Shown: in pieces, positions 7,653-25,504 of the stretch
How the letters are laid out: each line of letters opens with the position of its first letter
Numbering within the stretch: the stretch's first letter is position 1
NCBI GenBank assembly: GCA_001564065.1
Contig: LKNA01000014.1
Coordinates: 1-51,079 of the forward strand
Direction: 5' to 3'
Length of the DNA stretch: 51,079 bases
From: Chitinophagaceae bacterium T5-Br10_B2g13
GTDB lineage: Bacteria; Bacteroidota; Rhodothermia; Balneolales; Balneolaceae
Made by a program: the position numbers and the translations under genes
Notes under the pieces: generated by a model
Told to the model about the DNA's origin: nothing
Seen by the model: only the letters and a program-made list of their open reading frames with translations
Database searches by the model: none

Positions 7653-8663
7653 TTGTCTAAAACGATATATGATATTGCGAAAGCTGCCGGAGTGAGTATA
7701 GCTACGGTATCCAGGGTGTTCAATCAGGCGGAAAATGTAAAACCGCAGACCAGAAAAAAGGTATTGAAAGTAGCGGAAGAGATGGGGTACCATCCGCATG
7801 TTTATGCTCAGGGACTTGCCAGCAAGAAAAAGAACAGAATTTTGATGCTTGCCCCGGTTATGTCGAACTATTTCTTTACAGAAGTTCTAAGAGGTATACA
7901 GGACAGCCTTGCTGAAGAGAACTTTGAACTGAATATTGTAAACATCGGCCGAAAAAAAGATGCCTTTAAACAAGTTTCAGAAACATTGAAAAAAAGATGG
8001 GCTGAGGGATACCTGCTGGTTTCACTTCACTTTTCTGATAAAGAGCTTAAAACGTTAAGTCGATACGATACACCACTCTGTTTGGTTGATGACTTTAGCA
8101 ACCTGTTCGATTCAGTTAGTTTTAACAACGAGGAGGGAGCGTTTATGGCTACAGACTACTTTTTAAAGAAGGGTTACAAACGGATTGCCGTACTATCAGC
8201 TGATGCTACTTCCATACCTATCCGGGATCGAATTGCCGGATACAAAAGGGCTCTTTCAGAACACGATATTCCATTTGATGAAAAGTTGATAGTAGTCGGT
8301 GATAATATGGAAAGAGATGGCTTTACTGAGTTGAGCGGTTACCAGGCAATGAATAAAATTATAGCAATGGATCCGCTTCCCGACGCGGTTTTCTGTACAT
8401 CCGATACGAAAGCCGTTGGCGCCAAAAAAGCCCTGGAAGAGCAAAAGGTTCATATTCCCATCATAAGTTTTGATAACCTTACAATTGCCGAGTATATCGG
8501 ACTTTCTACAGTAAATCAGCCGATGTATGACATGGGTTTTCGTGCTACAAATAAATTAATACAGAGGTTACACAATCCGGAGCTGCGAATCAGCAATGAG
8601 GTACACTATCCGGAACTTGTAATTCGCTCTTCATCAGAGAAATTAAACGAAGTAATAACATGA
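7653..8663 (+). CDS. LacI family transcriptional regulator of the starch/maltodextrin locus
   Basis: A DNA-binding regulator of 336 residues. The N-terminal helix-turn-helix (TIYDIAKAAGVSIATVSRVF) and the hinge-region helix (VYAQGLASKK) are followed by a periplasmic-binding-protein-like effector domain, as in CcpA, MalI and SusR-replacing LacI proteins. The start is TTG at 7653, chosen because it puts SKTIYDIAK at the usual position and follows an AGAGG ribosome site by five bases. A perfect LacI operator lies just upstream. Its stop overlaps the amylase ATG (ATGA), so regulator and enzyme are translationally coupled. The inducer is presumably a malto-oligosaccharide, an inference from the neighbours. 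Confidence 0.93.
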   Translation: MSKTIYDIAKAAGVSIATVSRVFNQAENVKPQTRKKVLKVAEEMGYHPHVYAQGLASKKKNRILMLAPVMSNYFFTEVLRGIQDSLAEENFELNIVNIGRKKDAFKQVSETLKKRWAEGYLLVSLHFSDKELKTLSRYDTPLCLVDDFSNLFDSVSFNNEEGAFMATDYFLKKGYKRIAVLSADATSIPIRDRIAGYKRALSEHDIPFDEKLIVVGDNMERDGFTELSGYQAMNKIIAMDPLPDAVFCTSDTKAVGAKKALEEQKVHIPIISFDNLTIAEYIGLSTVNQPMYDMGFRATNKLIQRLHNPELRISNEVHYPELVIRSSSEKLNEVIT

Positions 8664-11551
8664 CATCACGATTTTTAAAAACAATTTTACTACTCATTAT
8701 TCTGGTATTATCTGCCCAGACGGTTAGGGGACAGGTGATAACTACCGATCCCGCGTTTCCAACAGAAGATCAGCCACTCACAATTATATTTGATGCATCT
8801 GAAGATCCGGGTGGGGAGTTAGTTGGTTATACGGGTAATTTATATGCTCATACAGGGTTGATTGTCTCAGAGTCTGCACAGGGATCAGGGAATTGGGAGT
8901 ATGTGATCGGTACCTGGGGTAATAACAGTTTACAGCCTCAATTAACAAGTTTGGGGAACAATCGCTGGGAGCTGGAAATGAATGATATCCGGGAATTTTA
9001 TGACGTGCCCGAATCTGAGGATAAGATATATCAAATCGCTATTGTTTTTCGCAGTTCAGATGGCAACAGACAATCTCGTCCGGATATTTTTATCGATATT
9101 TTCGAAGAAGATCTTTTAGTCCGTTTCACAAATCCTTCTGTCACATCTCTCAATCCTTTTTTCGCAGAGATGGGGCAAAATGTTGAACTTCGAGTGGAAG
9201 CTTCATCATCCAACTCAATAAGTTCATTGACGTTATTTGAGGGTGAAACAGAAATTGCGTCCACAACTGAATCCACGCTTGAGTATACCTACAATGTTAC
9301 AACAAGAGGAAGAACGGATTTCTATACAGTTGTGGAAGATGATGAGGGTGGGGTGGAATCTGATTCACTCTATATAATTGTTAACCCTGAAGTAACAGTT
9401 CAGGCACGTCCACAGGGTGTGGAAGATGGAATTCACTACCACGAGGATCCCTCTACGGTTACGTTCTCTTTCTATGCGCCCGATAAGGAGTTTGCCTATC
9501 TGATTGGGGATATGACCGACTGGGAGGTCCGTGAAGAGTATTTTATGTATCTGGACAATACAGACCCAACGGGGGATCGGTTCTGGATTACACTGGATAA
9601 TCTGACTGCGGGCGATCAGTATCGATTTCAATACTTTATTGATGGCGAAATAAGGGTAGCGGATCTCTTCTCAGAACTGGTACTGAACGATGATTTTGAT
9701 CAATATATTGACGATTCAGTCTATCCCAACATGCCGCAGTACCCTCATGGGCTTACCGAACACGCAGTAACAGTAATTGAACCGGGTCGGGAAGAGTACG
9801 AGTGGCAGGTAACCGATTTTGAACGACCGGCAAAAGAGGAGCTGGTTATTTATGAACTTCTGCTCCGTGATTTTGTGCAAGAGAGTTCGTTTGATGTGTT
9901 AACAGATACACTGGATTATCTAGAAAACCTGGGTGTAAATGCTATAGAGCTGATGCCGGTCTCTGAATTTGACGGCAACATCAGCTGGGGGTATAATCCT
10001 GTTTTTCACGGTGCGCTGGACAAATCATACGGCAGCCGAGAGGCATTTAAGCGGTTTGTTGATGAAGCTCATTCCAGAAGTATGGCGGTTATATTGGATG
10101 TGGTTTATAATCACGCTCATGATAAGTCTCCGTTAATCCGCGCTTATGGATCAAACCGGAATGTTAACCCGCTGCTTGGTCCGGGACACGCTTATAACGT
10201 TTTTTACCACCTAAACCACGATCATCCCTATATCAAGTACTGGCTGGATAGAATGAACCGGTACTGGCTTGAAACATATAATGTTGATGGCTACCGATTT
10301 GATCTAACCAAAGGTTTTGCAAGCAATGTGAATACCGGAAATAATCTGGACGGTTACAACTCACAGCGTATTACCAACCTGAAGCGGATGGCAGACAGAA
10401 TGTGGGAAGTTGATGAAAGTGCTTATGTGATATTGGAGCACTTTGCGGCAAATTCTGAGGAGACGGAACTATCCAATTACGGAATGTTGCTGTGGGGGAA
10501 TCAGAATCATAGCTACAGTCAGGCCTCTATGGGCTTTACTGAAGATTCGAATTTTTCCGGAATTCATTTCAGAAATCGAGGTTGGAACAACCCATACCTG
10601 ATTGGATATATGGAGAGCCATGATGAGCAGTGGATAATGTTCAGAAATCTTAATTTCGGAAATGATATCAATGACAATCACGATATTACCGACTTGGATG
10701 TAGCTTTGAACCGACAGAAACTGACGGGAGCTTTCTTTTTCACGATTCCGGGACCAAAAATGGTGTGGCAGTTTGGTGAATTGGGTTATGGCGGCGGACC
10801 TGATGAGTGCCTGAAGCCCGGAGGTTTTGGAGATGACGGGGCATGTTTGGCGTCTGATCCGGGACGTACCGATGAAAAGCCTGTAAGATGGGACTACTAC
10901 GAAGATGAGAACAGATACCGTTTATACAGAACGTGGTCTGAACTCCTAAGACTTCGTCACTCAAGTCCGGTATTCAGCAGCGGTAATACAGAATTTGAAG
11001 CCTCTTTAGGAGATGGAATAAAGTGGATTCGACTTCAGCATGAAGATATGGATGCAGTAATTGTTGGAAACTTTAGTGTGCTTTTCCGGGATGCAACGGT
11101 TGACTTTACGCAGCAGGGCGAGTGGCATGAATTTGTAACCGGCAATTCATTGGATGTCGGAAATGTTAGACAGAGTTTCAATATGGCACCGGGCGAGGTT
11201 CGGATCTATACAAGTAATTTTGTTGAACCTGCTGAAGAGAATGTATTCTTCCAGGTTGGAGAGAGTGATTTTGGTCAGCTTATTCGTGAGCTGAGTATTG
11301 ACTCTAACTACCCGAATCCGTTCAATCCAACCACACGGATTACATACGAGGTACCCGAAGCAGGTGCTGTTGTGCTGGATGTGTATGATGTGCTGGGCAG
11401 GAGAGTGGCTACTCTGGTAAATGACAATGAACATCCAAGAGGATCATTCACCGTCGATTTTGATGCCGCCGAATTGAGCAGCGGAGTCTATATTGCAAGA
11501 TTGAAACAGGGCGGACAGGTTGTATCAGAGAAGATGACGTTAATCAAGTAG
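8660..11551 (+). CDS. Secreted GH13 alpha-amylase family hydrolase with type IX sorting domain
   Basis: This enzyme of 963 residues should hydrolyse alpha-glucans at the cell surface. Order: signal peptide (1-25); a beta-domain to about 150; an Ig-like domain to about 245; an E-set/CBM48-like domain (260-340, FAYLIGDMTDW); GH13 catalytic barrel (about 390-760); C-terminal beta domain; sorting domain (about 880-963, NYPNPFNPTT to KMTLIK). GH13 region I is DVVYNH (480-485); the nucleophile is Asp548 in YRFDLTK, the acid/base Glu593 in VILEHF, and the transition-state Asp655 in ESHDEQ, so it should be active. Start overlaps the lacI stop by four bases. Whether it is an endo-amylase, pullulanase-like or maltogenic cannot be told from motifs alone. 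Confidence 0.95.
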   Translation: MTSRFLKTILLLIILVLSAQTVRGQVITTDPAFPTEDQPLTIIFDASEDPGGELVGYTGNLYAHTGLIVSESAQGSGNWEYVIGTWGNNSLQPQLTSLGNNRWELEMNDIREFYDVPESEDKIYQIAIVFRSSDGNRQSRPDIFIDIFEEDLLVRFTNPSVTSLNPFFAEMGQNVELRVEASSSNSISSLTLFEGETEIASTTESTLEYTYNVTTRGRTDFYTVVEDDEGGVESDSLYIIVNPEVTVQARPQGVEDGIHYHEDPSTVTFSFYAPDKEFAYLIGDMTDWEVREEYFMYLDNTDPTGDRFWITLDNLTAGDQYRFQYFIDGEIRVADLFSELVLNDDFDQYIDDSVYPNMPQYPHGLTEHAVTVIEPGREEYEWQVTDFERPAKEELVIYELLLRDFVQESSFDVLTDTLDYLENLGVNAIELMPVSEFDGNISWGYNPVFHGALDKSYGSREAFKRFVDEAHSRSMAVILDVVYNHAHDKSPLIRAYGSNRNVNPLLGPGHAYNVFYHLNHDHPYIKYWLDRMNRYWLETYNVDGYRFDLTKGFASNVNTGNNLDGYNSQRITNLKRMADRMWEVDESAYVILEHFAANSEETELSNYGMLLWGNQNHSYSQASMGFTEDSNFSGIHFRNRGWNNPYLIGYMESHDEQWIMFRNLNFGNDINDNHDITDLDVALNRQKLTGAFFFTIPGPKMVWQFGELGYGGGPDECLKPGGFGDDGACLASDPGRTDEKPVRWDYYEDENRYRLYRTWSELLRLRHSSPVFSSGNTEFEASLGDGIKWIRLQHEDMDAVIVGNFSVLFRDATVDFTQQGEWHEFVTGNSLDVGNVRQSFNMAPGEVRIYTSNFVEPAEENVFFQVGESDFGQLIRELSIDSNYPNPFNPTTRITYEVPEAGAVVLDVYDVLGRRVATLVNDNEHPRGSFTVDFDAAELSSGVYIARLKQGGQVVSEKMTLIK

Positions 11552-13177: not shown

Positions 13178-14230
13178 TCAGTTAAGTTCCACAGAATAGC
13201 GGTAGATAGGACCTGAAAGATCAAGTTCTACCGTATAGTTTCCTGCTTCTTGAATCGGGATGTTATCCGCTCCTTCTTGTAGTGTTCCATCCGCGTTCTC
13301 AGAACCGTAATTAAGATCCCAGGCATCGTTTGCACGGAATTTAATTTCACCGGCAGTCAGATCAACGGTTAATCTCCAAACCTTATCATCAACATCATAG
13401 GTCAAGTCGGTGTCTGCATCCCATCCACCGGGAGTAGCATCTCCAATCAAGCCCCACTCTGTGCGGAGTGTTTGGTAGGTAAGATTATTCAGGTCTACAT
13501 TGATTTTGTAGTAACCTGCATCTTCCATTAAGAGATTACCTCCACCCGGTTCAAGTTCACCGGCTCCACCGCCCCAGTCACCGTCATCCCAGTTCCTTTC
13601 AGCAGTGAATTTGTACTCTTGTCCACCATCAGCAAAGTAAACATAACCTTCATATCGGTTGTCATCACTCCGGGATGCTAATGCAGGTGCATCAGCCGGT
13701 GACCAGTCATTTGTGTAACCACTGGCAGACTGATATCCGCCGGGTACATAGATTTCCGGAAATTCAATGATGATTTCGTAAGGAGTGAAGGCGAAGATGA
13801 AGACTTCTGATATCCGATCTTCAACATCTGCGTTTACGTGTGCACGTATTCGCATCGGTATCTCCGTTTCAATTCCAAAAGGTACACCGGCTACGTTGAG
13901 TCGGTTATTTACCTGTGCAACCGTTAATGAAATGGAGGTTTGATTTGTCTCTACAAATGTTACTGGATTTTCGAAATCCGATCCGTCAACATCCATTTCG
14001 ATGGTATAGGTTACAGCTGCGCTGAATCCGAAATCCGGAGCGTTCCACGAAAGTGTAAAAAGCTCTTCGTCGGCATCTTCTTCATTCAGCACAAAGCTTT
14101 CCCCGCCGGAATGTGAAGTAAGGGCAGGGGTGCCCGGATCTGAATTCACAACGGGTCCCACTGAGTCTTCACACGAGGTGAAGAGCAGCAGTCCAAAAAT
14201 CGCGATTAACGATATAATTAAATTTTTCAT
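13178..14230 (-). CDS. SusE-like surface lipoprotein, starch-binding
   Basis: An outer-membrane lipoprotein of 350 residues that should bind glucan at the cell surface. The signal peptide ends at a lipobox (LLFTSC, Cys20). An N-terminal SusE Ig-like domain spans about 30-150 (FTLSWNAPDFGF is typical). Two SusE/SusF-type carbohydrate-binding modules follow: about 159-256 (IYVPGGYQ, NDWSPAD, EYKFTAERNW, LEPGGGNL) and 257-350 (WGLIGDATPGGWDAD, IKFRANDAWDLNYG). The last is the canonical SusE/F C-terminal form. The first module is closely matched inside the neighbouring SusD. It is the last gene of susC-susD-susE, 28 bases after susD, and is followed by a strong terminator. Confidence 0.9.
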   Translation of the reverse strand: MKNLIISLIAIFGLLLFTSCEDSVGPVVNSDPGTPALTSHSGGESFVLNEEDADEELFTLSWNAPDFGFSAAVTYTIEMDVDGSDFENPVTFVETNQTSISLTVAQVNNRLNVAGVPFGIETEIPMRIRAHVNADVEDRISEVFIFAFTPYEIIIEFPEIYVPGGYQSASGYTNDWSPADAPALASRSDDNRYEGYVYFADGGQEYKFTAERNWDDGDWGGGAGELEPGGGNLLMEDAGYYKINVDLNNLTYQTLRTEWGLIGDATPGGWDADTDLTYDVDDKVWRLTVDLTAGEIKFRANDAWDLNYGSENADGTLQEGADNIPIQEAGNYTVELDLSGPIYRYSVELN

Positions 14231-14258: not shown

Positions 14259-16172
14259 TTAGTATCCCGGGTTCTGAGACAGATTCAGATTCGAATTGAT
14301 ATCTGAAGATGGAATCGGGAAAATTTCGTAATGGCTGCTCGTGCCTGTTCCTGCCTGGCTGCCACCTTTCCATGACCATAGGTAGTTGTCGCCGGTATAG
14401 CGATCAAATCTGCGCAAGTCAGTTCGTCGGTGAGCTTCCCAGTAGAGTTCACGGCCACGTTCATCCAGAATGAAATTCAGATTAAGGTCGCCTGCGTTGA
14501 TGTTTGCTTCTGGCCCGCCGAATGCACGTTCGCGCAATTCATTCACATAGGCAACAGCCTGTGGAACAGATCCACCGGATGCTCCGCGCAAGGTTGCTTC
14601 AGCATAGATCAAGTGGAAGTCGGCAAGACGGAATACAGGGAAGTCTGTGTATACAAAGTCTGTACGCGGTGCGGGTGAACCGTCACGCTGTACATTTTTC
14701 CATTTGCTTACCGAGTAGCCTTGGTTGAAGTCTCTGTAGTCATCGATTTCAAGTGATTGTCCGTCGGTAAAAAACATCGCTCTATTTTCAGATGCACCGG
14801 CTTCCAGAGAGTAGGTTCCTTCATTCAGGTCTACGGTAAATGTGTAAACACCGGCTTGATTAACAACAAGGTTGCCTCCACCGGGTTCCAATCCACCTTC
14901 ACCATCGTCGCCCCAGTCGCCGCCGCCCCAGTCACGCTCGTTGGTAAACTTATACTCGGCACCTGCACTGGCGAAGTAAACAACACCTGTGTAGACATCA
15001 TCACTGTTTTCAGAAATCAGTTGAACACCATCTGCCGGCGACCAGTCGTTTTCGTAACCACTGGCAGCCTGGAATCCGCCTACGACATATATTTCAGGAT
15101 AACCACCTGTATTTTCAGTTTGCGCACCTGCAAAAAAGTCGCTGCTATCAAACAGATTTACAAACTCGGGTGTGGTTCGGTGACCGGCCCAACCGCCGTT
15201 AATTCCAAACGAACTGGCGCTCATATTACCGCCCACAGCAGCGTGTACGATAAATGTGGTACCACCGAATGTTCTCATGTTTTCGCCATCCTGAGGGATA
15301 CCAAAAATGATCTCTTGAGACTGGTTGTTGTCAGCCAGGAATAGATGCTCATAATTTCCATCCAGTTCGTAAACTCCGCTATTGATTACATTCTCAGCAT
15401 AGGTGAGGGCATCATCATAGCGATCCTGTCCAACATAAACCTCTGCATTGAGATATAGCTTGGAAAGAAGTGCCCAGGCTGCACCGCGATCTATTCGACC
15501 GTATTCGGATTGTCCTGCACTTAACAGTTCATCTTCGATATCAAGCAGTTCACTTTCTATGAAGGCAAACAGATCGTTTGCATTGGTCTGCTCGGGCTCA
15601 AAAGCACCGATTGGATCATTTTCAGTTACAAACGGAACATTACCGCCAAAAAGGTCGAGTGCATGCCAGTAACTGAAAGCCCGAAGAAATCGAGCTTCTG
15701 CAAGATAACTTTGAATGATCGATTCGTCACGGTTTTGTGCTTCACGAATGAACTCATTGGCCGTTGTTATTTGGTAAAATACGCGGCTGTACATTCCCAT
15801 TACGAAGTCGTTAGACGGACCCCATGCCTGGAAATTATATTCCGGCAGGCCCGGGTCGTTCCACGCCACAACGGCTTCATCGGTTGGTAGAGTTTGATGT
15901 ACCCAAAGCTGACGAATATAGCTGGAAAAACCTTCGTCAATACCCTGGATATCACCCTGTCCGGCAGGACCTTCCTGACCGGTTACGGCATAACCCGCAT
16001 ATAGTTTTGCTAAAACCTGACGGAAATCATCAGGAGTATCATACACTTGGGCAGCAGTAACCTCACTGTCATCGATAGGAGAGGTATTCAGGTCGTTTAC
16101 ACACGACGTGGCAAAGGCTACTGTCAGGCCGACAAGCGCGAATGCTAATATTTTAAATTTGTTATTAAACAT
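14259..16172 (-). CDS. SusD/RagB family outer-membrane lipoprotein with inserted SusE-type binding domain
   Basis: This is the nutrient-capture lid of the SusC transporter. I use the ATG at 16172 (637 residues); a TTG nine bases upstream is also open. The lipobox is AFATSC (Cys24). The helical SusD core is recognisable: FRQVLAKLYAGY, SYLAEARFLRAFSYWHALDLFG, RGAAWALLSKLYLNAEVY, then FPVFRLADFHLIYAEA and INAGDLNLNFILDERGRELYWE. Between VNLFDSSDFF and NRAMFFTDGQ lies a roughly 100-residue insertion that is a SusE-type module (see separate entry). This makes the protein about 100 residues longer than usual. It is located between susC (25-base gap) and susE. Confidence 0.93.
   Translation of the reverse strand: MFNNKFKILAFALVGLTVAFATSCVNDLNTSPIDDSEVTAAQVYDTPDDFRQVLAKLYAGYAVTGQEGPAGQGDIQGIDEGFSSYIRQLWVHQTLPTDEAVVAWNDPGLPEYNFQAWGPSNDFVMGMYSRVFYQITTANEFIREAQNRDESIIQSYLAEARFLRAFSYWHALDLFGGNVPFVTENDPIGAFEPEQTNANDLFAFIESELLDIEDELLSAGQSEYGRIDRGAAWALLSKLYLNAEVYVGQDRYDDALTYAENVINSGVYELDGNYEHLFLADNNQSQEIIFGIPQDGENMRTFGGTTFIVHAAVGGNMSASSFGINGGWAGHRTTPEFVNLFDSSDFFAGAQTENTGGYPEIYVVGGFQAASGYENDWSPADGVQLISENSDDVYTGVVYFASAGAEYKFTNERDWGGGDWGDDGEGGLEPGGGNLVVNQAGVYTFTVDLNEGTYSLEAGASENRAMFFTDGQSLEIDDYRDFNQGYSVSKWKNVQRDGSPAPRTDFVYTDFPVFRLADFHLIYAEATLRGASGGSVPQAVAYVNELRERAFGGPEANINAGDLNLNFILDERGRELYWEAHRRTDLRRFDRYTGDNYLWSWKGGSQAGTGTSSHYEIFPIPSSDINSNLNLSQNPGY
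14796..15101 (-). other. SusE-type carbohydrate-binding module inserted within SusD
   Basis: Residues about 358-459 of SusD (IYVVGGFQ, ENDWSPAD, EYKFTNERDW, LEPGGGNL, VYTFTVDL) match SusE residues 159-253 at about 60% identity by eye. The DNA of the two segments (13463-13756 and here) is also similar, for example GTAACCACTGGCAG in both. The insertion falls in a loop just before the conserved RAMFFTDGQ strand of the SusD core and leaves flanking SusD sequence intact. Confidence 0.85.
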
Positions 16173-16197
16173 AATCTTCAAGATTAAGGTGTTTCAA

Positions 16198-19182
16198 TTA
16201 AAAATTGAGGTTCAATCCCAGTACGAAGGTACGTGGCCGGGGATAGAGGTTATAGTCAATTCCTCCGAAAACCTCAGGATCCTGCCCGCTATACTCGGTG
16301 ATTGTAAATACATTCTGTACGGTTGCAGAAACTCTCATCGATGAGACAACATCAAGCAGTTGATTAAACGTATACCCAACGGAGATGTTATCAAGTCTGA
16401 GGAAAGATGCATTTTCAACAAAATGGTCAGAATGATACTGAGCATTTACAAATCTGCTGCTGTTTACAAACTGAGTTGGATTTGTTAAGAACCCGGTATT
16501 GTTGAATGTCTGGCTGATGATGGCATTATCTGACGCAACGTTGTTGTAAACGTAGTTGCCGATACTTGCACGGGCAGCAAAGGACGCATCCCAGTTTTTA
16601 TACTCATATCGAGTTGAGAAACCGAATGTCCAGTCAGGATTTGGGCTTTTATGGCGATACATATCAGCCTCGGTAATCTGTCCGTCACCGTTTCGATCTA
16701 CATAAAGACCTTCAATCGGCATGCCATTATCATCATACACCTGCTCATACACGTAGAATGAATTTCGCGGATGACCTACGCTATGAATCTGTATGGTATT
16801 ACCGGTACCTCCGGCAATGCCACCGGTTTCAACACCGATATAGCTTGGATCGTCAATTGTTGTGAGCTTGGTAATCTCATCTGTGGTATAGGTAGCGTTG
16901 AACGATACCTGTAAGAATGAATTCTCGGTTGAGATTAGTCGGCCTGTGATATCAAACTCAATACCTTGTACTTCCAGAGTTCCAACATTTGATAGCACCC
17001 TGTTGGTGAAGTTGGTTCCCGCAGGTACGGGTATCACATTCAGAAGGTCCTGGGTTTCTCTGTGAAATACTTCAACTGAACCAAAAATCTGCTCTTCGTT
17101 AAAGCTGTAATCCAGACCTATGTTATAGGTAGTTGTCTCTTCCCACTTCAGGTTTGCATTGTATCCTTCCGGACGCAGAGTAGTTACAAACTCATTACCG
17201 AACGGATAGCGTGCGGTCTCTTGAGAGAATGTATAACGTGCCAGGTACGGGTAGTTACCCTGGCCAATTCGCTGTTGCCCAGTAACACCATAACCAAGGC
17301 GAAGCTTCAATTCACTGAGTCGGTCAAAATCTGACATGAAGTTTTCGCGATGCATGTTCCATGCAAAAGCAAAAGAAGGGAAGAGGCCCCATCGGTTGTC
17401 TTCTGAGAACCTGGACGTTCCATCCTGACGCAAGGTAGCCGTGAACAGGTAGCGATCCATCAGAGAGTAGTTTGCACGTCCAAAGAACGAAACAATATAG
17501 TACTCTGTGGCATACTCGTTATCCGTATTCACCACAACAACTTGCGAACGGTCGAAGTTGGTTGAGAAAGTTGAACCCTCTTCATAGTGGTGTTCCCAAG
17601 AGTAACCGCCGGTTAAATCCAGTCGGCTGTTCTCAAATTCTGTGTTGTAGTTCAGATAGAAGTCGAGAAGCTGGTTCTCTTTTCTCTGATCGTAGTTGGT
17701 GCGCACACCGGGTGCAGCTCCTCCAATCTCCCAGGCCGCCTGATCAGATACAGTAACCAGTCCGTCTCCTACGTCTGAGTAGTCAAAGCCAAGATTTAAC
17801 GTTGCGGTTAAGTCAGGCAGTTGAACAGGTTTGTAGTCGATCTGAAAATTACCGATTGCACGATATACAGTTGATTCATCATTTCTCTGATCAATCAGCG
17901 CCATTGGGTTAATAGGAGCAATTGGAATTGGATTTCCGTCGCCATCTGTCCATGTGTAGAATCCACCGAATGGTGCGCCTTCACCGAGCATTACAGGTTG
18001 TGTGGGATCGTAAGAAATCGCTGACCCGATAGCACCTGTGTCTGCAAATCGGTTGTCTACGCGTACACCCCTGAAGTTAACATCAGCACTCAGCTGATCA
18101 TCAAAAAATGTTGGGTTTACGGCAATAGAACCGGAAAGACGGTCATTGTTAGATGTTTTTAGTACACCTTGGTTTCCAGAAAAACCGAGAGAAACACGGT
18201 ATGGAATATCGTATGCCGAACCGGCTACACTCAGATTATGATCTTGAGTAAACGCATTCCGGAATAGCTGATCTTGCCAGTCAGTGTTTTCATTACCCAG
18301 AAAGTTAAGAGCAGATGCGCTGATGTTTCCGGCAGCAACCTCATCTTCAACAAATGTGCGGAACTCATCGCCATCGAGTACGCCAATGCGATCATCGTTT
18401 GTTTGATAAGAGAATCGTCCATTGTAGTTAACCTGTAAATCCTGTCCGGACTGGCCGCGTTTGGTAGTAATGATGATAACACCGTTTGAAGCACGAGAAC
18501 CGTAAATAGCAGTTGCGGAAGCATCCTTCAGTACGGTAATGGACTCAATGTCGTTCGGGTTGATTGTGTTGAGCGGATTTCTCATCCCTGCAATACCACC
18601 GTCATCCAGAGGAACACCATCCACTACATAAAGCGGATCGTTACTGGCTGCGAGGGAAGACCCACCACGGATACGGATGGTTGCCCCGGCTCCGGGTGCA
18701 CCACTGTTTGATGTAACCTGAACTCCGGCTGCACGTCCCTGGAATAACTCTTCAGGTGATGTAATCGCACCCTGGTTGAAGTCTCTGGAACTAACAACAC
18801 GGATTGATCCTGTGTTATCGCCCCGTTCCTGAACACCGTAACCGATAACGACCAGTTCGGAGAGCGCTTGAACGTCTGTGCTCATTTGCACGTCGATCGT
18901 TTCACGCCCGTCTACCGGTACTTCCATGGTTACGAATCCGATGTAAGAAAAGATTAAGACATCGTCTGCATTAACTCTTAATGAGTATTGGCCTTCGAGG
19001 TTTGTTGTTGTACCTCGGTCGGGAGTTCCTTGCACGGTGATGTTAACACCGGGCAGACTTTCACCCGTTTCTAGTTCTGTAACCGTACCACTGACTGTGA
19101 TTTCAGACTGCGCATGCGCCGGTAATGCATACGAGCAGAAAAACATAATCAATAGCAGGCTGAGTAGCTGTTTTACCTTCAT
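16198..19182 (-). CDS. SusC/RagA family TonB-linked outer-membrane transporter
   Basis: An outer-membrane beta-barrel of 994 residues that imports the oligosaccharide with SusD as lid, powered by TonB. Order: signal peptide (1-25, ending AHAQ); CarboxypepD-regulatory-like beta domain (about 28-110, VSGTVTELETGESLPGVNI, YSLRVNADDVLIFSYIGF); the family signature LSELVVIGYG; TonB plug (about 125-235, RGRAAGVQVTSNSGAPGAG, RIRGGSS, PLYVVDGVPLDD, ATAIYGSRASNGVIIITTK); barrel to the C-terminal aromatic LNF. It is the first gene of susCDE. Two LacI-type operators lie 52 and 152 bases before the start, so it is probably controlled by the LacI regulator at 7653. Confidence 0.96.
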   Translation of the reverse strand: MKVKQLLSLLLIMFFCSYALPAHAQSEITVSGTVTELETGESLPGVNITVQGTPDRGTTTNLEGQYSLRVNADDVLIFSYIGFVTMEVPVDGRETIDVQMSTDVQALSELVVIGYGVQERGDNTGSIRVVSSRDFNQGAITSPEELFQGRAAGVQVTSNSGAPGAGATIRIRGGSSLAASNDPLYVVDGVPLDDGGIAGMRNPLNTINPNDIESITVLKDASATAIYGSRASNGVIIITTKRGQSGQDLQVNYNGRFSYQTNDDRIGVLDGDEFRTFVEDEVAAGNISASALNFLGNENTDWQDQLFRNAFTQDHNLSVAGSAYDIPYRVSLGFSGNQGVLKTSNNDRLSGSIAVNPTFFDDQLSADVNFRGVRVDNRFADTGAIGSAISYDPTQPVMLGEGAPFGGFYTWTDGDGNPIPIAPINPMALIDQRNDESTVYRAIGNFQIDYKPVQLPDLTATLNLGFDYSDVGDGLVTVSDQAAWEIGGAAPGVRTNYDQRKENQLLDFYLNYNTEFENSRLDLTGGYSWEHHYEEGSTFSTNFDRSQVVVVNTDNEYATEYYIVSFFGRANYSLMDRYLFTATLRQDGTSRFSEDNRWGLFPSFAFAWNMHRENFMSDFDRLSELKLRLGYGVTGQQRIGQGNYPYLARYTFSQETARYPFGNEFVTTLRPEGYNANLKWEETTTYNIGLDYSFNEEQIFGSVEVFHRETQDLLNVIPVPAGTNFTNRVLSNVGTLEVQGIEFDITGRLISTENSFLQVSFNATYTTDEITKLTTIDDPSYIGVETGGIAGGTGNTIQIHSVGHPRNSFYVYEQVYDDNGMPIEGLYVDRNGDGQITEADMYRHKSPNPDWTFGFSTRYEYKNWDASFAARASIGNYVYNNVASDNAIISQTFNNTGFLTNPTQFVNSSRFVNAQYHSDHFVENASFLRLDNISVGYTFNQLLDVVSSMRVSATVQNVFTITEYSGQDPEVFGGIDYNLYPRPRTFVLGLNLNF

Positions 19183-19684: not shown

Positions 19685-20676
19685 ATGATATCATTTCTTA
19701 GAAAAAAGGGGATTGAACTTTCACTGAAAACCTATGTAATTACGGCTCTTTCGTATATGGCACTCGGCCTGTTTGCATCCCTGATTATCGGGTTGATTAT
19801 CAGAACAGCAGGAGAGCAGCTTGATATCGAGATGTTTATTACTATAGGTCAAACGGCCATGGATCTAATGGGGCCGGCCATAGGTGTGGCTATTGCTTAC
19901 GGACTTAAGGCCCCTTCACTGGTTCTTTTTGCATCTGCTGTGGCCGGGGGCTTTGGTGCCTCAGCAGGCGGACCGGCCGGTGCATACATTGCTTCCGTTC
20001 TTGCAACCGAATTTGGGAAATTGATTTCCGGCTCTACTAAGGTGGATATCATAGCAACACCGCTTGTGACTATTTTTGTGGGGTATTTATCAATGAAGGG
20101 ATGCTCGCTTTCGGAGAGTTGATTAACTGGTCTGTAAATCAACACCCGCTTATTATGGGAATTTTGGTGGCATCTTTAATGGGTGTTGCTCTTACGGCTC
20201 CAATTTCAAGTGCCGCTATTGCAATAATGCTTGGTCTTGATGGTCTTGCCGCCGGAGCCGCGACGGTAGGGTGTTCAGCCCAGATGATCGGTTTTGCAGT
20301 GAGCAGCTATCGTGAAAATGGAGTTGGCGGGCTGATCGCGCAGGGGATAGGGACATCCATGCTTCAAATTGCAAATGTGATCAAAAATCCGTTCATCTTA
20401 ATACCTCCCGTTTTGGCCGGGGCACTGCTGGCGCCTTTTGCCACACTTGTTTTTATGATGGAGAACACACCTGAAGGGGCGGGCATGGGTACAAGTGGTT
20501 TCGTTGGACAGATCTTCACATTTACGTCAATGGGTTTTAGCTGGGAGGTGGTGGCTTACATCCTGGTATTGCACATTATCGGCCCGGCAATTCTGGCGTA
20601 TATCATTTCAGAGTTTCTCAGAAAAAAGAACTTTATCAAGGAGGGAGATATGCTTTTGAGGAGTGAATCCCAGTAA
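19685..20676 (+). pseudogene. PTS_EIIC_2-family membrane transporter, frameshifted
   Basis: Two overlapping frames cover one membrane protein of the PTS_EIIC_2 (PF13303) type. The first (19685-20122) has KRKGIEL-like start, MGPAIGVAIAYGLKAP, GGPAGAYIAS and KVDIIATPLVTIFVGYL, then runs out of frame (KGCSLSES). The second (20101-20676) resumes with AFGELINW, LMGVALTAPISSAAIAIMLG and ATVGCSAQMIGFAVSSYREN, and ends KKNFIKEGDMLL. By recollection of the family, about ten residues (around VGPxISA) are missing at the junction, so a deletion of about 30 bases not divisible by three is likely. Substrate of the family is poorly defined. A sequencing error or two-part expression cannot be excluded. It is divergent from susC. 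Confidence 0.75.
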
Positions 20677-23364: not shown

Positions 23365-24699
23365 TTATCTGCTCTCTTTATAGAATGTATTTACCTGAAG
23401 CAGTCTGTGATAAAATTGATTGTTATCGCGAAAATAGACGAAGGCGTGATACTGCTGCCGTGTTTCAGGGAACAGTGTATCGAACGCCATATCATCCACT
23501 CTGTTGTTTTCTGCCAACACATATTTATATCGATACGTGCCCTCTTTCATAACAACAGATTGAGTCCACCTGCCGGTTTGTTCATCAAAGTTCATTTTAA
23601 ATTCCTGATTAAGTTTCCACGAATTAAAATCCCCAACCAGATAAATTTCTTGGTCATCATTTATGTGTGAACCCGCATCAAACCTGAATTCAACATCTAA
23701 ATAGTTTGTGCTGCCAGACTGATCAGGCCCAAACCGGTGGGGAGCCCCAATCGCTACAGGCTGGGTAAACCCATCGGCATCATCCCGCAAAATAACGTTC
23801 CACGGTTCACTGCTTCTGTCAACATCCAGAATGGTTCTGCTCAGTTGTTCAACATCGGTCAGATTCAGGATCCGGAATTCATAATCTCCCAAAAATGGCC
23901 GGTTATGAGAGAGTTCAAACTGTACTTCATTAGGATTGGAAAAATCAAGTTCTCTTGCTTCGGGAGCACGTCCCCAGAATTGGTTTTGGCTGTAATAGAA
24001 AGAGAGATCGAACTGAGGTTGATCCAGCCAGTCCGGCAACAGATATCTGCTTACAGGGCGATGCATTACCCTGTGCCGGTATCTTGCCGATCGAAGGGTT
24101 TCAGCAGTGGATACGATAGTCCCCTCGTTTTCAAAAACGAAAAAGGGCAGAGAGAATTCGAGCTCTCCGGTATCTCTGTTGTGAACGTGAAGCATATAGT
24201 TACCACTGACTCTGAACCCCACATTGTGGTTTGGAAATTGATAAGGATACGACCGATAGTAAGGTTGTGTTGTGCGGCTTAAAATTCCACCGGGAATATC
24301 ATGCCGGCCAAAACCGGTGAAAAACTGGTCGGGGGAAAGGCCTGACTCAGACCAATCGGGGTTATGGTGGGTAAATGAGATTTCATAAGAGTGTGAGTCG
24401 AAGCCAAGAGTTTCAAACCGGAGTGTAAGCTGAACATTGCTGTTTAAATTCAAAAAAGGAGCTTCATTTGGGCGATCAGAAGGGTAGAGCTGTACGGAGT
24501 AAATCGGATGTGCGGGGGCAGCGGATTGCGGAAGTGTAAAATAGTGTTCAATTGAACCAGCTTGAGTTGCTCTTCGGTCGTTTGCAGTCCGCTCGGTTCC
24601 TGAACATCCATGAATTGTAAAGATGAGGAGTGGAATGATGAAAGTAGAGAACAGGAGGTGACGGTATGACTGAATGTTATAAATAATACTGTCCCTCAA
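23365..24699 (-). CDS. DUF5103 protein (type IX secretion plug-like), lipoprotein
   Basis: A cell-envelope protein of about 444 residues. The family signature is clear: IYSVQLYPSDRPNEAPFLNLNSN, LRFETLGFDSHSYEISFTHHNPDW, SYPYQFPNHNVGFRVSGNYMLHV. Relatives are annotated as T9SS plug or DUF5103 proteins, fitting the two T9SS cargo proteins in this window. The C-terminal part has an E-set/AMPK-like fold (EIYLVGDFNSWKLN...YRYKYVL). The start is uncertain: I chose TTG at 24699, giving an n-region, hydrophobic core and TIHGC lipobox. TTG at 24705 or 24759 is also open; every option overlaps the dapF end. It lies within the ccmB-holB-dapF operon. Confidence 0.8.
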   Translation of the reverse strand: MRDSIIYNIQSYRHLLFSTFIIPLLIFTIHGCSGTERTANDRRATQAGSIEHYFTLPQSAAPAHPIYSVQLYPSDRPNEAPFLNLNSNVQLTLRFETLGFDSHSYEISFTHHNPDWSESGLSPDQFFTGFGRHDIPGGILSRTTQPYYRSYPYQFPNHNVGFRVSGNYMLHVHNRDTGELEFSLPFFVFENEGTIVSTAETLRSARYRHRVMHRPVSRYLLPDWLDQPQFDLSFYYSQNQFWGRAPEARELDFSNPNEVQFELSHNRPFLGDYEFRILNLTDVEQLSRTILDVDRSSEPWNVILRDDADGFTQPVAIGAPHRFGPDQSGSTNYLDVEFRFDAGSHINDDQEIYLVGDFNSWKLNQEFKMNFDEQTGRWTQSVVMKEGTYRYKYVLAENNRVDDMAFDTLFPETRQQYHAFVYFRDNNQFYHRLLQVNTFYKESR

Positions 24700-25504
24700 A
24701 TACAAATGTTGCCGGCCCTTCCAGTTTAATATTTTTATAGCTGCCGGTCGTATCGTCAAAATCGAAATGCACCTTTAACATACCGCCTCTTACCTTAACA
24801 TTATAACTAAATGAACCATCGCCAATCTGCTGAAGATGATGCCATGCCAGTGCAGAAGCGATGGCACCGGTTCCGCAAGCAAGGGTAAGATTTTCTACTC
24901 CGCGCTCGTAGGTTTGCAGGCAGAGCTCATCGGAGTTAATTCCGGCAATAAAGTTTACGTTGGTACCAACAGGCTGGTAGTAGTTATGGTATCGCAGATA
25001 TCGCCCGTCTGTAATTAGTTGTTTCTCATCTTCAAGCTGATCTTGCTGTACGGGGCAGACAACGTGTTCGGTATTCGTATAGACGTTTAAAACGGCTTCT
25101 GACCCTACTTTTTCCTCTGCTACCTTCGTCTCGAGTGGAAATGAGATTATAACATTGTTTTCATCAACAGAAGCTTTATAAATCTTGTCATGAACCCGGA
25201 AACTAAATTCAGTCGGTGAACCGAGCGTTACGGCGTAAGCGGCAAAACAGCGGGCTCCGTTTCCGCACATTCCGGCATCACTGCCGTCCGGGTTTTTATA
25301 GACCATCACCAGATCCGCCTTTTTTGATGAATCGTAACAGAGGGCTATCAAACCGTCACTGCCCACACCAAATTTCCGGTCGCAAAGAACCGGGGCGATT
25401 TTGGAGAGTTCATCATCATCGATTTTAAGTGTGCGGTTATCGAAAAGGACAAAATCATTGCCCGCACCCTGCATTTTTAAAAAAGGTAAAGTGTTGTTAT
25501 CCAT
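24677..25504 (-). CDS. dapF: Diaminopimelate epimerase
   Basis: It converts LL- to meso-diaminopimelate for lysine and peptidoglycan synthesis, in the cytoplasm. The 275 residues have FLKMQGAGNDFVLFDN at the start and the two catalytic cysteines: Cys80 in GMCGNGARCFA and Cys210 in NLTLACGTGAIASAL. RYHNYYQPVGTNVNFI is also typical. It is seven bases from holB and overlaps the start of the DUF5103 gene, so it is part of the same transcript. The length is normal and all key residues are present. Confidence 0.97.
   Translation of the reverse strand: MDNNTLPFLKMQGAGNDFVLFDNRTLKIDDDELSKIAPVLCDRKFGVGSDGLIALCYDSSKKADLVMVYKNPDGSDAGMCGNGARCFAAYAVTLGSPTEFSFRVHDKIYKASVDENNVIISFPLETKVAEEKVGSEAVLNVYTNTEHVVCPVQQDQLEDEKQLITDGRYLRYHNYYQPVGTNVNFIAGINSDELCLQTYERGVENLTLACGTGAIASALAWHHLQQIGDGSFSYNVKVRGGMLKVHFDFDDTTGSYKNIKLEGPATFVFEGQYYL

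Follow-up and report, generated by a model that had tools for sequence, protein, structure and literature searches.

In the standard Sus model, glycan capture by SusE and SusF and gating by SusD are placed on separate lipoproteins, and the cooperation between them is debated. Here we describe a SusD protein, the lid of a starch-type SusCD importer, that carries a module of the SusE kind within its own chain. It is encoded in a 51,079-nucleotide stretch of DNA (the window, one whole contig, LKNA01000014.1 or C35) from the Balneolaceae genome of Chitinophagaceae bacterium T5-Br10_B2g13 (GCA_001564065.1; G000 below). We think it likely that this lid captured one SusE/SusF-kind module in the surface loop after its own starch site, and that the module catches glucan for import.

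The nearest described lids are the SusD of Bacteroides thetaiotaomicron (3CK7, 3CK9) and the BVU SusD 3JYS, also lipoproteins that serve as lids of SusC; both blocks flanking the insert align with them, with 31% identity in the fold match, but they have no inserted binding module, and 3JYS has about ten residues at the place of the insert. In the B. thetaiotaomicron SusE and SusF (4FEM, 4FCH, 4FE9), the modules belong to lipoproteins of their own and follow an Ig-like PF14292 domain that is missing from the window SusD, while the X25-type starch-binding domains of Ruminococcus bromii Sca5 (7RPY) and a Bacillus pullulanase (2WAN) are parts of enzymes or amylosome scaffolds in other bacteria. 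A binding module likewise lies inside the Sus amylase SusG, namely CBM58, which presumably belongs to a module family other than that of the SusD module. According to the accessible part of PMC11267923, CBM58 is inserted in domain B; SusG is an enzyme, whereas the window SusD is a lid. F5_SusD-like (7NEK) is another SusD whose C-terminal half holds a large additional region, but, in the available portion of PMC9599597, this region is described as coils and some strands, with no SusE module, and the protein does not bind. In the levan and dextran utilisomes, a mobile glycan-binding protein at the cell surface cooperates with SusCD and docks close to SusD (PMC7618045, accessible in part); the binding domain of those systems is a protein of its own, whereas in the window SusD it is part of the lid. 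No description of a SusD with a SusE module was found in the open-access literature, as far as its texts were accessible (preprints and most subscription papers were not covered). The protein is a new form of SusD, and the form recurs in several families.

The module is a SusF_SusE/X25-type beta-sandwich within an otherwise complete SusD of a susC-susD-susE cluster. A SusE-type domain inside SusD had been proposed in an earlier reading of the window made from the letters alone (the sequence-only reading), and Pfam bears this out, with SusD_RagB, SusD-like_3 and SusF_SusE all in one 640-residue frame. Both SusD halves score above their cut-offs (PF07980 113.8 bits against 23.1, PF14322 31.4 against 27), as does the isolated module against PF16411 (40.3 bits, curated cut-off 27.5). 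The solved SusDs without an insert skip the middle of the protein [3jys aligns to residues 46-347 and 464-640, 3ck7 to 28-332 and 460-640], and in alignment the window SusD is 116 residues longer at this place than the insert-less Balneolaceae SusD G054a. The module has the beta-sandwich fold of SusE/SusF modules, and its closest folds are starch-binding domains; Pfam and fold together exclude that the segment is a normal part of a SusD subfamily unrelated to SusE. PF14292, present in the window SusE, was not found by Pfam in the window SusD at E values up to 1, and SusD is therefore not classed as a SusE. The likeness to the neighbouring SusE, put at about 60% by eye, amounts to 55/97 identical residues (57%, E 5e-30) between SusD 361-457 and SusE 157-252; a six-frame search of the genome with the segment gave 62% identity over its residues 1-98, and only two places in the genome match. 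The positions first proposed, 14796-15101, are right for the module, and the whole insert is larger. The genes and segments concerned are as follows.

14259..16181, minus strand: susD, 640 residues as listed from TTG (PF07980 E 1.6e-32, PF14322 E 2.8e-7; 3jys E 6.3e-101)
~14793..15140, minus strand: whole insert in SusD, residues 348-463, missing from insert-less SusDs
14805..15101, minus strand: SusF_SusE-type module in SusD, residues 361-459
13178..14230, minus strand: susE, a 350-residue lipoprotein with a PF14292 N-terminal domain (27-128) and two SusF_SusE modules
13472..13762, minus strand: SusE module 1, homologue of the SusD module
13181..13462, minus strand: SusE module 2, C-terminal type (best PF16411 stretch SusE 261-336; boundaries by alignment)
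16198..19182, minus strand: susC, TonB-dependent transporter (TIGR04056 E 1.1e-230, and TIGR04057)

Read by eye, the likely start of susD is an ATG four codons inside the listed TTG, and a lipobox-like ...AFATSC ends in Cys27. The gene adjoins susC, and the gene order is identical in all 12 insert-bearing Balneolaceae loci. An assembly chimera might be suspected from the 258 contigs and 8.87% estimated contamination of the assembly; it is practically out of the question, as 11 other Balneolaceae genomes carry the insert at the same residue, and the reservation on this score in the sequence-only reading falls away.

The insert begins 16 residues past W331, which aligns with the tryptophan at chain index 296 of 3ck7; we take the latter to be Trp320 of the starch site, of which Trp98 is presumably also part. 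In the accessible part of PMC3969230, Cys94-Trp96 is set against Ile323-Ala325. Within the module, W21 and W59 are kept in 12/12 SusD and 20/20 SusE modules of Balneolaceae, and the two tryptophans are also kept in 18/18 SusDs of f31, one of two further families with module-bearing SusDs (f31 and f34, below). Because the insert starts near W331 and the tryptophans are conserved, the module is predicted to bind alpha-glucan beside the SusD site, with W21 and W59 as the probable contacts. The SusD's own module would catch an alpha-glucan chain, which would pass to the SusD site and then into SusC as the lid closes, and one chain would do what SusD and the SusE lipoprotein do jointly. We infer that this combination of capture and gating in a single chain is the best reading available.

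It is unlikely that the module instead binds no glycan and serves as a spacer in the structure or as a surface on which SusC, the amylase or SusE docks. Such a role would agree with the accessible part of PMC9599597, where SusE helps SusCD and, once SusD no longer binds, restores uptake in a way that does not depend on its starch-binding sites, and where another SusD-like protein with a large extra region (382-444) does not bind; it would also agree with the frequent lack of the two tryptophans in the first modules of f34. Against it stand both tryptophans in 12/12 and 18/18 modules of two families whose loci mostly carry amylase-like genes, and the fact that the closest folds are starch-binding domains. 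The reading that the lid captured a glucan-catching module has several observations to contend with. In f34, the two tryptophans are kept in only 8/23 and 5/23 first modules (15/23 and 14/23 second modules), and binding or specificity has thus probably changed in the first modules. SusE is kept in all 12 insert-bearing Balneolaceae loci, so that the insert is no replacement of SusE there; eight of the 20 module-checked Balneolaceae genomes with this SusD are insert-less; and, by the proportion of nonsynonymous differences (pN), the module evolves faster than the remaining SusD in 6/7 pairs. The full-length SusD model, finally, is poor [mean predicted local distance difference test (pLDDT) 54.9, predicted template modelling score (pTM) 0.56], too poor to place the module over the site or to fit SusC.

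The sequence-only reading regarded the module as almost copied from the neighbouring SusE, with similar DNA, through copying between adjacent genes or gene conversion. The homology stands, and a recent near-copy kept alike by conversion does not, given the trees, the approximately unbiased (AU) test and the synonymous sites. Nucleotide identity is just 64% over 97 codons, and the proportion of synonymous differences (pS) is 0.70, which represents near-saturated synonymous sites; in seven other genomes, pS between SusD and SusE modules is 0.70-0.95. In the module tree, the SusE modules form one group and the SusD modules of different genomes the other (support 92.7/95), and a constraint that makes the SusD and SusE modules of each genome sisters in all eight genomes having both is rejected (AU p 8e-5), with the own SusE ranking only 4 to 15 in six of the eight. 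The SusE modules of five other-type Balneolaceae loci, plus L044 and L045, were left out of the module trees, and when C-terminal SusE modules serve as outgroup the SusD modules are not one clade, with low support (31-41). Four of the 12 insert-bearing loci (G042, G075, G015 and G018; L057, L058, L064 and L065) have SusE modules of another type and hence no conversion partner; SusE in these loci looks as if it had been swapped, and the first-type module survives in SusD alone. Because the SusD and SusE groups split, the pairing is rejected, the synonymous sites are near saturation and the SusE is of another type in 4/12 loci, these sequence comparisons indicate that the module copy is old and that the window module is no recent copy from the neighbouring gene.

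That a recent duplication, or ongoing gene conversion between susD and the adjoining susE, keeps the two modules of G000 alike is quite improbable, although this genome offers some points in its favor. The G000 SusD module is closest to its own SusE among 20 SusE modules (61.5% versus at most 57.1%), the AU test does not reject the own-pair constraint for G000 alone (p 0.106), and pS is lower, at 0.45 and 0.40, in the first two sliding windows (~24 codons). The tract LEPGGGNL is common to the two G000 modules (approximately 14869-14928 and 13562-13612) and was not seen in the other aligned Balneolaceae SusD modules. It is possibly the trace of an old local conversion in the G000 lineage; recent copying and general gene conversion are contradicted by the trees, the AU test and the synonymous sites, the pairing of G000 alone excepted.

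Within Balneolaceae, a full-length insert-bearing SusD is present in 12/92 genomes (G000, G042, G043, G075, G009, G010, G015, G018, G019, G021, G026 and G029; G028, with a susD truncated at the end of its contig, was left out), and an insert-less SusD of about 520-555 residues in eight (G054 with two copies, G077, G071, G020, G016, G058, G062 and G014). Among 244 class genomes searched, neither the close SusDs of other order members (G109, G122, G123, G125) nor the more distant SusDs have an insert. All 12 inserts break the same loop, between D-x-D and G/x-R of D-x-D-N-D-G-R, and the insert-less Balneolaceae SusDs share the short loop D-x-D-N-D-G/S-R with the outgroup family f5. The modules of the insert-bearing SusDs group together although their backbones do not: in a tree of 33 sequences, nine distant ones having been dropped, a single clade of insert-bearing backbones is rejected for the whole protein (AU p 0.0005) and for the N-terminal half (0.004). 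This pattern reflects recombination between susD genes, or repeated loss with exact restoration of the loop, or repeated gain. We tentatively favor recombination that carried the insert from one susD gene to another. An ancestral Balneolaceae insert, lost several times and neither spread by recombination nor regained, is a tenable if somewhat doubtful alternative. It would account for the Balneolaceae SusD modules forming one group against the SusE modules, for the pre-module linker residues that they share around G-x-x-T-x-N-P/T-x-G and that SusE lacks, and for the C-terminal halves, for which one insert-bearing clade is not rejected (p 0.10). Repeated loss would, however, have to restore exactly the short loop common to the insert-less members and f5, and the rejection of a single backbone clade also speaks against it, though losses on that tree are still possible.

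The sequence-only reading had treated the window SusD as a case without described parallel, yet the arrangement recurs, beyond the 12 Balneolaceae genomes, in two other families, where different SusE modules occupy the equivalent site. A search of 395 phylum genomes with the module profile led to these SusDs. A starch-type SusD (E 1e-50 or better) is present in 101 of the 395 and is split by an insert in 16, comprising nine Balneolaceae, five others with modules (G292, G363, G466, G284, G324) and two with inserts of unknown type (G458, G481). In f34, 40/150 genomes have a full-length match to a two-module SusD, with one more cut by a contig end, and 37/150 have only insert-less SusD matches; in f31, a one-module SusD is matched along its length in 30/299 genomes (that of G853 is cut at a contig end), and insert-less SusDs occur in 28/299. 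The locus DNA shows two profile hits in 25/27 f34 loci, the other two having one hit within an insert of equal length, and one hit in 18/18 f31 loci. In an alignment of 102 SusDs, all 57 module-bearing proteins and the two with unknown inserts open after residue 379 of G054a, a common position that is exact to a few residues, since alignment programs are prone to pull gaps together. That one loop has been used repeatedly points out a site in SusD that tolerates an added binding domain without breaking the lid. The inserts of G458 and G481 (L154:5817-7655, L155:6286-8124), counted apart, are 81-82 residues long and lie at the same loop; they showed no Pfam domain and no match to the module profile.

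In the cross-family module tree, from which f34 SusDs without two profile hits were left out (six SusE and six C-terminal modules were dropped from one further module set), the f34 second modules group with the second modules of f34 SusE, the f34 first modules with SusE first modules, and the f31 SusD modules fall near f31 SusE modules, each with modest support. A single capture across all families was rejected [AU p ~1e-127 for all SusD modules together; 49/148 modules used here and in the next two tests]. One origin of the f31 and Balneolaceae modules is also rejected (p 2e-7), but common ancestry of the Balneolaceae module with the f34 first module is not (p 0.33). Among backbones (42/102 sequences), one clade of all insert-bearing proteins was rejected (p 3.5e-39), and f34 and f31 alone as a clade gave AU p 0.012 and, in the Shimodaira-Hasegawa (SH) test, 0.156. 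The rejection of one origin for all SusD modules and for those of f31 and Balneolaceae points to at least two captures; three are not borne out by the test.

A gene with SusE similarity lies next to SusD in 16/18 f31 loci and in 9/27 f34 loci. In the other 18/27 f34 loci, blastp with the module profile and four SusE N-domains found no SusE next to SusD, in a search that covered the locus and not the rest of the genome and that could have overlooked a SusE-like protein with a different fold. The captured modules seem to have replaced SusE in part of f34. We give about even chances to the broader proposal that two or more captures, perhaps three or above, brought SusE-type glycan-binding modules into the loop next to the sugar site in starch-type SusD lids across Bacteroidota, and that in one family the captured pair replaced the separate SusE lipoprotein, the self-sufficient capture-and-gate lid then spreading to other glycans. 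A lid with its own SusE module, and a family whose such lids lack a recognisable SusE, are natural experiments on whether the module on the lid suffices.

Most Balneolaceae and f31 loci carry amylase-like genes, and G292 has a glycoside hydrolase family 53 (GH53) enzyme (Pfam) beside SusD, of which G363 has a homologue; GH labels other than GH53 are blastp hits and may rest on shared secretion tails. In the window, an amylase-family gene lies near the sus genes on the opposite strand, next to a regulator.

8660..11551, plus strand: alpha-amylase family protein (GH13-type) with a type IX secretion tail (PF00128 E 2.2e-20, PF18962 E 6.4e-9)
7653..8663, plus strand: LacI-family regulator (PF00356 E 7.7e-20, and PF13377)

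In the loci of G292 and G363 (L156:7575-11158, L157:5009-9222), the two-module SusD is followed directly by the GH53-type enzyme, with no SusE, and alongside lies a divergent secreted protein that has a type IX tail and carries four to five modules of the SusE type. In G180 (L090:6479-9958), the susD frame runs on without a stop for some 640 codons upstream, where it overlaps susC, which is read in a different frame of that strand. Elsewhere in the window, an open frame at 20101-20676 covers the second half alone of the PTS_EIIC_2 profile (145-326 of 327), and 23365-24759 encodes a T9SS_plug_1st protein whose C-terminal end has a sub-threshold AMPK1_CBM-like match.
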